Assembly: GCA_031260355.1 (NCBI GenBank)
Contig: JAIRJZ010000038.1
Location: 1 to 64,000, forward strand
Direction: 5' to 3'
DNA length: 64,000 nt
Source of the DNA: Burkholderiales bacterium
Lineage (GTDB): Bacteria; Pseudomonadota; Gammaproteobacteria; Burkholderiales; Casimicrobiaceae
The notes under the pieces are model-generated. The model ran no database searches and was not told the DNA's origin. It saw only the letters and a program-made list of their open reading frames with translations. This document shows, in pieces, positions 27,990-30,209 of the stretch. Made by a program: the position numbers and the translations under genes. Position 1 is the first letter of the stretch, and the number at the start of each line of letters is the position of its first letter.

Positions 27990-28862
27990 ATGAATTTGAA
28001 AACAATGCTGTTTTTGTTGCTCGTTTTTTTTCTCGCCGCGTGCGGTGGCGGCGGCAGTGGCAATAATAACAACGGTGGTAGCGGTGATAACGGCGGCGGC
28101 GGTAACGGCGGTGGCGGCAACGGTGACGATGGTGATCGTGTCACCGTCAAAAAACTGTTGAGCCGCGTCATGGTGAACGGCCTGGAACAGGAAAGCCTTC
28201 AATACGACAACCTGAACCGCCTTGTCGAACTGAATTTTCCGGATGTGGGAATCAGAAAATTCGAGTACGAGGGCAATGACCCGCGGCCGTCTTTGCTGGT
28301 TGACCCTTCTCCCGGCCTTGCCTACATGTACAGCCGATACCAATACGGCGTGGAAAATATTGACGGTGTTCCCACGAATTATTTTCAAACGCAGTCATTG
28401 AATGCGAACGGCGTTCCTTTCTCGATGATTTGGCGTTACTACCTGAACGATCAGAATCGGATCATCGCCGCAGGTACCTTTGTCGGCGGCGTTTTCTCTC
28501 CTCTTCCCCTGTCCTACCTCTATGACGACCATGGCAACCTGATCAAGGAAACGGCAGGTAACGACGCCACCTGGGAATACACCTACGACAACAAGAAAAG
28601 CCCCGTCTCAGAGGCGGCCGCGCCGCGATGGTTGTTTGACGACTTGTCCTCTGCCAATCTTTTTGCCAGCCCCAACAACCCGCTGACCGAAACCTATACG
28701 CTTTACCCTTCTCGTATCCACAAGGCTTTCCGCTACACCTACGATAGCGACGGTTATCCGACCGAAGTTACGGTAACCTCCGAAGCGTTCAACGACGCGG
28801 TCGGAGCGCGGATTCCGCTGGGGACGGTTGTCAAGACTTTTGAATACATTCTCGCCCATTAG
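27990..28862 (+). CDS. Lipoprotein with YD-like repeats
   Basis: A 290-residue putative lipoprotein. MNLKTMLFLLLVFFLAAC is a signal peptide with lipobox, followed by a Gly/Asn/Asp linker of about 30 residues and a beta-rich body with YD/RHS-like strands (LQYDNLNRLVELNF, YLYDDHGNLIKETAG, WEYTYDNKK, FRYTYDSDGYPTEVTV). Such proteins are usually surface or periplasmic; the function is unknown. The start has GAGGGG eight bases upstream. The stop codon TAG is created by the junction with a MITE-like insertion: TA belongs to the target and G to the element. It is divergent from metX. Confidence 0.8.
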   Translation: MNLKTMLFLLLVFFLAACGGGGSGNNNNGGSGDNGGGGNGGGGNGDDGDRVTVKKLLSRVMVNGLEQESLQYDNLNRLVELNFPDVGIRKFEYEGNDPRPSLLVDPSPGLAYMYSRYQYGVENIDGVPTNYFQTQSLNANGVPFSMIWRYYLNDQNRIIAAGTFVGGVFSPLPLSYLYDDHGNLIKETAGNDATWEYTYDNKKSPVSEAAAPRWLFDDLSSANLFASPNNPLTETYTLYPSRIHKAFRYTYDSDGYPTEVTVTSEAFNDAVGARIPLGTVVKTFEYILAH

Positions 28863-29129
28863 GGTCTGTTAACACTATTTCCGCAGCCGCGAAGGGCAGA
28901 TTTGGCTTGCCCTTCAAGGCGCGCGACGCAGCATGGGTCGGCCACCCTTGCAAGGAGCGTAACGCCGAAGGGCAGGGCAAGGCCGCCCTTCCCCTTGGGT
29001 TGCAAACCCGAGGGGGCGTCTGCGGCGTTGCGGTCGCTTGCAAGGCTCACGGCATTGCTGCGCGACCACGCCTTGCTTCCACCCCCTCGGGTACGCAACG
29101 CGATTTGCGGAAATAGTGTTAACAGACCC
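28862..29129. mobile_element. MITE-like element with 24-bp terminal inverted repeats and TA flanks
   Basis: The ends GGGTCTGTTAACACTATTTC... and its exact reverse complement at 29106-29129 form a perfect inverted repeat of 24 bp, or 25 including the palindromic outer base. The 268-bp unit is flanked on both sides by TA, as expected for IS630/Tc1-type transposition. The interior is GC-rich with its own inverted segments and no credible gene, so it is non-autonomous. Removing the element and one TA restores CAT TAA, a stop codon for the upstream lipoprotein. Confidence 0.8.
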
Positions 29130-29285
29130 TAAACCGATGGGGGCGATCCCGTGCGCGATGCCTTTTCTCGCCGGCGCGCCCCTCCGCAAAAACCCTGAAA
29201 GTTCCATGAAAAACCCGTGCGCCCGGTTTTCGTGTCCCGAATACGATGTACACTTGCGGCATTTTTCTTCTCCGCCCCCCGAGTC

Positions 29286-30209
29286 ATGAACGCGACAGCG
29301 CCCGTTTCTTCCCCTTCTCTCGGCCACTGGCTGATCGCCACGCGCCCTTGGTCTTTCCCGGCGTCCAGCATGCCGGCGCTGGTCACTTTCGTTTATGTCT
29401 TTTACTTGAGCCGGCACGATGCGCTGGACGTCAACTGGCTGCTGGGCGTTCTGGCCATTATCGGCGCTGTCGTCTTTCAAATCAGCGGCAATCTGATCAG
29501 CGATTATTTCGACTACACGCGCGGCATCGACCGCGAAGACACTTTCGGTTCCAGCCGTTTGCTGGTCAATCAGACTTTCCGCCCGCGCACCATTCTCCGG
29601 TACGGCATCGGCTTTATCATCTTCGGCGCGTTCCTCGGTCTTTATCTGGTTTCGCAAACCGGAGGGCCGCTGCTGATCATCGGCTTCCTCGGTTTTGTCG
29701 GCGCCGCTTTTTATTACCAATTCAAGAGTCGGGCGCTCGGTGATGCGCTGATCTTTCTGGTTTACGGACCGCTGATCTCCGTCGGCGTTTTTTATGTGAT
29801 GACCGGTCTGCTGGATTGGCGGATTGTCGCTCTGTCGTTGCCGATCGCGTTCATTACAGTCAATATTCTGCACGCCAACAATACCCGCGACATGGCGCAC
29901 GACAAGCGCGCCGACATCAAGACTTTCGCCATGCTGCTGGGTGTCCGAAGGTCGGTTTTCAGCTATAAATTGCACGTCTTTCTGACGTATCTGCTCATGG
30001 CGGCACTGGTCATTGCGGGAATCCTTCCCTGGGTGACGCTGTGCGTGTTTTTGACGCTGCCGCTGGCCATCGGCAACTGTCGGGCGATGGAACAAGCCCG
30101 CGAAGAACAACCGGAAAACATTCGCGACCTCGATGTCAGAACCGCAAAACTGCAACTGGCGTTCAGTGTCCTGTTGTCGGCGCTGCTTTTCGTGTCCGCC
30201 TGGTTATGA
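29286..30209 (+). CDS. menA: UbiA-family prenyltransferase, MenA-like
   Basis: Integral membrane prenyltransferase. Both Asp-rich motifs are present: NLISDYFDYTRGIDRED and NNTRDMAHDKRADIKT. Their form (SDYFDY, NNTRD) is that of 1,4-dihydroxy-2-naphthoate polyprenyltransferase rather than UbiA, pointing to menaquinone synthesis. About eight to nine hydrophobic helices in 307 residues. The frame is open further upstream, but ATG 29286 fits family length. The stop overlaps the next start (ATGA). Other men genes are not in the window, so the route is not confirmed. Confidence 0.85.
   Translation: MNATAPVSSPSLGHWLIATRPWSFPASSMPALVTFVYVFYLSRHDALDVNWLLGVLAIIGAVVFQISGNLISDYFDYTRGIDREDTFGSSRLLVNQTFRPRTILRYGIGFIIFGAFLGLYLVSQTGGPLLIIGFLGFVGAAFYYQFKSRALGDALIFLVYGPLISVGVFYVMTGLLDWRIVALSLPIAFITVNILHANNTRDMAHDKRADIKTFAMLLGVRRSVFSYKLHVFLTYLLMAALVIAGILPWVTLCVFLTLPLAIGNCRAMEQAREEQPENIRDLDVRTAKLQLAFSVLLSALLFVSAWL

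Follow-up and report, generated by a model that had tools for sequence, protein, structure and literature searches.

The window, a 64,000-nucleotide stretch of a Burkholderiales bacterium contig (GenBank JAIRJZ010000038.1), encodes a YD-repeat lipoprotein, recognised by profile search (TIGR01643/PF05593), whose stop codon carries an inserted element, with a prenyltransferase gene downstream (Table 1). The lipoprotein frame ends ...FEYILAH, read from CTC GCC CAT TA|G with the element beginning at the G; the right junction is CCC|TAAACC, and the flanks, once joined, give CAT TAA ACC. The element tip is GGGTCTGTTAACACTATTTCCGCA at 28862, with its exact complement ending at 29129, perfect over 24 bp and extended to 27 bp once the flanking TTA/TAA are included. 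No transposase is encoded; the element is short and non-coding, and with its terminal inverted repeats and TA/TA target duplication it meets both of these criteria for a MITE. The lipoprotein itself is of patchy distribution and has several diverged paralogs in the genus, with matches at four or five places in one congener (G002).

Table 1. Features at the insertion site (positions within the window)
Feature	Position	Strand	Basis or remark
YD/RHS-repeat lipoprotein gene, stop codon carrying the insertion	27990..28862	+	TIGR01643/PF05593 matches; ortholog L026 has the same last residue
Left TA of target duplication	28860..28861	none	target before insertion TTAA, which fits YTAR
Stop codon TAG, rebuilt from target TA and the initial G of the element	28860..28862	+	sequence; TAA in the G001 empty site
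Non-autonomous mobile element, 268 bp	28862..29129	+	covariance model R1 matched over all 267 positions
Left terminal inverted repeat, 24 bp	28862..28885	+	
Arm A of four-way junction	28891..28991	+	covarying helices 2-5
Conserved mini-hairpin CCC-N-GGG between the arms	28992..28998	+	
Arm B of four-way junction (GTTGC...GCAAC)	28999..29099	+	
Right terminal inverted repeat, 24 bp	29106..29129	-	perfect complement of left repeat
Right TA of target duplication	29130..29131	none	sequence
Prenyltransferase (menA-like) gene, downstream	29286..30209	+	G001 has the same neighbour

A congener provides a site without the element (G001, contig C38, locus L026), where the order metX, lipoprotein gene, menA-like gene is as in the window. 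The lipoprotein there is 65% identical to that of the window and ends FEYIPAH-TAA-ATC (site CAT-TAA-ATC); as the last residue is identical in the two genomes, the gene has not been shortened. The intergenic regions to the right of the stop have diverged, which restricts the comparison to the joined CATTAAA heptamer, and the TA duplication at the window site is inferred from its flanks. An earlier note had described a TA-flanked element of 268 bp at the 3′ end of the lipoprotein gene and a stop codon rebuilt as TAG that reverts to TAA on removal of the element; both descriptions held, the latter by sequence and by the element-free TAA of the congener. Its reading of a MITE that duplicated TA and left the gene unharmed is supported by this relative and by many independent copies, and neither outcome that would have refuted it, a TA that was not duplicated or a gene that was formerly longer, was observed in the empty-site comparison.

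Distribution of the element family

A search for further copies, which the earlier note had suggested, recovered a second full-length copy in the same genome (C50:12473-12743), 89% identical, flanked by TA and occupying the TAG that ends a livF-like gene (an assignment of this gene as lptB was rejected, the best score being to LivF), together with degenerate or partial copies in contigs C30, C38 and C81. The degenerate copy in C30 (L011, ∼1100-1560) has another palindromic repeat (GTCATTCCCGCTTTCGCGGGAATGAC) within it. Further copies occur in the congeners G003 and G004, whose records we take, from the isolate names Cu122P3bin14 and Pmx449_bin24, to be termite-gut MAGs; in G004, a 57-bp short form is located in the TAG of a gene with an ffh-like C-terminus, which we take to be ffh from that C-terminus only, without a family test. 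A full-length copy on a Variovorax plasmid, 71.5% identical, also lies within a stop codon. In Pseudomonas aeruginosa PA83, a conjugative IncP plasmid carries another full-length element (L346:1475-1739), with an acyl-CoA dehydrogenase gene on one side and a CoA-transferase gene on the other.

The tip is present in 119 of 399 genomes of the order by tip search. Covariance model R1, built from 32 aligned relatives, was run on 369 genomes sampled from the class and gave full-length matches in 103, spanning 83 genera; the MITE criterion of multiple dispersed copies is met by the own genome (two full-length copies and relics) and by many others. Among 164 copies, length stays at 263-268 bp in 136, and TA stands on both sides in 95. 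Two Variovorax strains differ at one and the same insertion site, with a full-length element of 264 bp in one (L057:3003-3266) and a form collapsed to ∼51 bp in the other (L282:2001-2049); alongside this collapse, the short forms of ∼50-57 bp seen at other places may likewise be collapsed copies.

Elements with different tips were seen 3 bp apart in G402 (L121:1017-1280 and L121:1284-1550) and ∼1.1 kb apart in G077 (L064:1-262 and L064:1350-1615), as if sites adjoining existing copies were favoured for insertion. In G340, one element (L136:1503-1776) splits a short palindrome, TAGGTCGGAT-TA...TGATCCGACCTA, possibly a terminator hairpin.

The tip pattern was matched neither in viral contigs nor in phages, and a viral or phage origin was rejected. 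Identity with a known Rfam RNA family was likewise not supported, with no match at E ≤ 1 in the window region and none at the gathering threshold in 12 loci, and a search of the open-access literature with words from the tip and core sequence returned nothing relevant. The family is widespread and apparently unnamed, with the proviso that ISfinder was not covered by the comparison.

Target sites, stop codons and the parent transposon

In a first set of 50 copies with TA on both sides, 94% had a rebuilt target of YTAR type and 23 copies lay in a predicted stop codon, the corresponding shares of control TA sites being 7% and 1.9%. A wider set of 95 TA-flanked copies, of which half came from beyond the order, gave YTAR at 88 (93%, against 10% of control TA) and an insertion exactly in a predicted stop codon at 41 (against 1.3%); with tetramers matched, 40 stop codons were observed where 9.5 were expected. 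Genes were called by a home-made codon-usage model and the stop-codon fractions therefore carry error; among ten host proteins checked, several match equivalog models up to their last residues, reaching natural C-termini in purB (455/456), hemF (294/294), xerC (295/295), livF (237/237) and osmC (133/134). As each strand of YTAR contains a stop codon and the tips start with G, the stop of either strand is restored, and in two convergent gene pairs sharing one CTAG, purB/dedA (L210) and bioD/osmC (L218), the two G-starting tips of the element restore both stops. The hit at the lipoprotein gene, the one site described in the earlier note, is not an isolated case: stop-codon use follows from YTAR targeting.

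The enrichment of stop codons is inferred to arise partly from the target sequence and partly from the harmlessness of such insertions. Purifying selection and the supply of YTAR sites could account for it without any added preference, a reading supported by the presence of TAR on both strands of YTAR and by the depletion of intragenic insertions observed in the first set; we lean slightly against it, however, as stop codons remain over-used even when only non-coding YTAR sites are considered (22/41 vs 11/86).

Full-length elements with the same tips identify the parent type. At L112 and L113, these tips bound TA-flanked copies of ∼828 bp with two overlapping frames that meet at a run of A; the product of these frames, joined by eye across that run, contains DUF4096 (PF13340) and DDE_Tnp_1 (PF01609) and matches the NCBIfam IS5 model NF033580 at E=1e-73. 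The possession of tips in common with an autonomous element is a further MITE criterion met, and the tests for a parent of the IS5 family, IS427 group, are met by the IS5-type DDE transposase and by the YTAR/TA target. The earlier note had pointed to an IS630-like parent, and this part failed: TA duplication by itself would fit an IS630/Tc1-type element, but no IS630-type transposase was found with these tips, the same-tip elements carry IS5-family (IS427-like) transposases, and the targets are YTAR as described for IS5, which itself duplicates Py-T-A-Pu (PMC5493358), so that such a parent is all but excluded. The own genus yielded only IS5 relatives of 25-39% identity and no closely matching transposase; the parent IS could be missing from the fragmented MAGs of the genus, or extinct there. 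In G340, many contigs (L132-L158) end 50-200 bp past a tip, the pattern that a repeated full-length IS would leave by interrupting the assembly.

TA flanks, YTAR targeting, stop-codon use far above background and tips common with IS5-family elements are shown. On the main reading, held to be very likely (probability ∼0.85), the window element is of MITE type and was mobilised by an IS5-family (IS427-like) transposase. The transposase is inferred to have acted in trans, and the element would have inserted into the TTAA in which the lipoprotein gene had its stop codon, TAA, with duplication of TA; termination would have been restored because the first base of the element is G.

The folded core

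The whole element forms one fold, a four-way junction made up of a base stem formed by the tips, two long arms and the CCC-GGG mini-hairpin. Folding z-scores of -10.2 (DNA) and -11.4 (RNA), with none of 200 shuffles equally stable, indicate that the fold of the window element is not due to chance. In the 32 aligned relatives, changes on both sides were found in 68 of 83 pairs and 91.9% of cells were paired, with shuffled or slid versions of the alignment far below the real pairing; in 29 sequences outside the model, 72 of the 83 pairs covary and 94% of cells are paired, compared with 66% when shuffled, this alignment having been fitted to the model, which somewhat favours pairing. Cells departing from Watson-Crick pairing are few (G-T 85 and A-C 54 of 2619), A-C being the commoner in the tips and arm B. 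The unpaired motifs AAGGCG, GCGTTGC, GCGCCTTG and AACGC are kept, and conserved unpaired motifs and conserved mismatches within the arms persist across orders.

An action of the fold as RNA, as a transcribed 3′-UTR element that protects the upstream mRNA or ends transcription, would be suggested by a very stable fold directly behind the stop, by the 41 of 95 copies in stop codons and by covariation of the sort typical for structured RNA. The orientation of the stop-codon copies relative to the host gene is, however, random (22:19 in the wider set), which disfavours a role for one RNA strand; G-T is hardly commoner than A-C; no Rfam family was matched; about half of the copies lie away from stop codons; and no intrinsic terminator was found at the element. 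The RNA reading is considered unlikely. The suggestion in the earlier note that the left tip contributes to termination or mRNA folding accordingly gains no terminator pattern in its favour; the TAG does abut the base of the very stable fold, and any such role is untested.

A less likely alternative is palindrome correction, in which template switching during replication would maintain the complementarity, the covariation then reflecting a mutational process rather than function. The often perfect tips, the rarity of both G-T and A-C, and the rearrangement of palindromes evident in the short forms and in the Variovorax collapse speak for this process, which remains a possible source of part of the covariation. 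Correction alone should nevertheless erase internal loops, whereas the conserved unpaired motifs and mismatches persist, and length is held within a few base pairs in most copies; from the conserved unpaired motifs it is argued that correction by itself is insufficient. Under the main reading, the folded strand is inferred to aid mobilisation or replication, and the fold would be kept mainly at the DNA level, given the random orientation to host genes and the near parity of G-T and A-C, a pattern compatible with either selection or correction acting on DNA; the function of the core is itself an inference.

Exchange of ends and relation to known elements

Most copies have GGGCCTGTTMAC-like tips (the main tip class), while others carry GAGCCTRTCYRTGAATAAAT, TGTCCTGTC, GTACTCYTTCAAGG, (G)GAAACTCTGC and further types. 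An HMM of main-tip cores only, with tips removed, recognised 49 of 50 other-tip elements at E<1e-7, the best decoy scoring 0.09 and the exception being L121:1284-1550 (E 0.011); convergence of unrelated palindromes is rejected by this result for most other-tip elements. A conserved four-way-junction core of near-fixed length, common to elements with different tips, is thus shown. Main-tip copies have a 2-bp duplication in 85 of 114 cases and never one of 3 or 4 bp; tip classes B, C and I together have a 3-bp duplication in 10 of 19 copies, and the TGTCCTGTC tip a 4-bp duplication in one of two, counts for the rare classes being small. In a tree of 158 cores, the label of main or other tip changes at least nine times, five of these changes being forced by well-supported branches. 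As the core sequence is conserved but the tips differ, and the length of the duplication (2 to 3 bp) tracks the tip, the ends have been exchanged repeatedly. The helper IS for the second tip class was sought on plasmids with the tip, and only chance matches were returned.

Partial counterparts are found among described elements. ISPsp10, of the IS427 group in the IS5 family, produces a TA duplication and relies on a target TAA for its own stop codon (PMC4133298); it is alike in the TA duplication, the parent copies here having a two-frame transposase, but the present element lacks a transposase and presents the mirror image of the borrowing, supplying the stop of the host gene. MITEPsy1 of Pseudomonas syringae (PMC3189936) is a small IS5-related MITE with a CTAG or YTAA target and a tip, GGAAGGTCTG, similar to one of the minority tip classes of the family; it differs in its 100-bp length and 4-nt duplication, and a folded core of this kind is not described in the relevant sections of that report. 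ERIC and RU-type sequences of enterobacteria (PMC2229807, PMC2759123) are likewise small, non-coding, MITE-like intergenic repeats, but of 103-168 bp. The Tn3-derived TIMEs (PMC4133298) are comparable in their ∼262 bp, conserved core stretches and similar predicted RNA folds among copies, and differ in having Tn3-type 38-bp ends and duplications of 5-6 bp. Assignment to REP/BIME sequences (GTAG/CGTC-tagged palindromes of 20-40 bp; PMC3733652) was rejected for an element of 268 bp with TA duplication, and assignment to integron attC sites, which are integrase-associated and without target duplication, for a TA-flanked insertion with an empty-site relative.

A bolder reading, on which the evidence leaves us evenly divided, would take the ∼210-nt four-way-junction core as the unit of selection, an independent and very widespread selfish DNA structure that repeatedly swaps its ends and helper transposase among IS5-type groups, with length near-fixed and the stop codon preferred. 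The element is in any case a common structured one, carried by roughly one in four genomes sampled from the class and absent from Rfam. It follows a simple rule for a parasite entering dense bacterial genomes with genes left intact, namely to target YTAR and start with G, such that the stop is remade on either strand, and its combination of a constant fold with changing ends allows selection on DNA structure inside a transposon, beyond the tips, to be tested.
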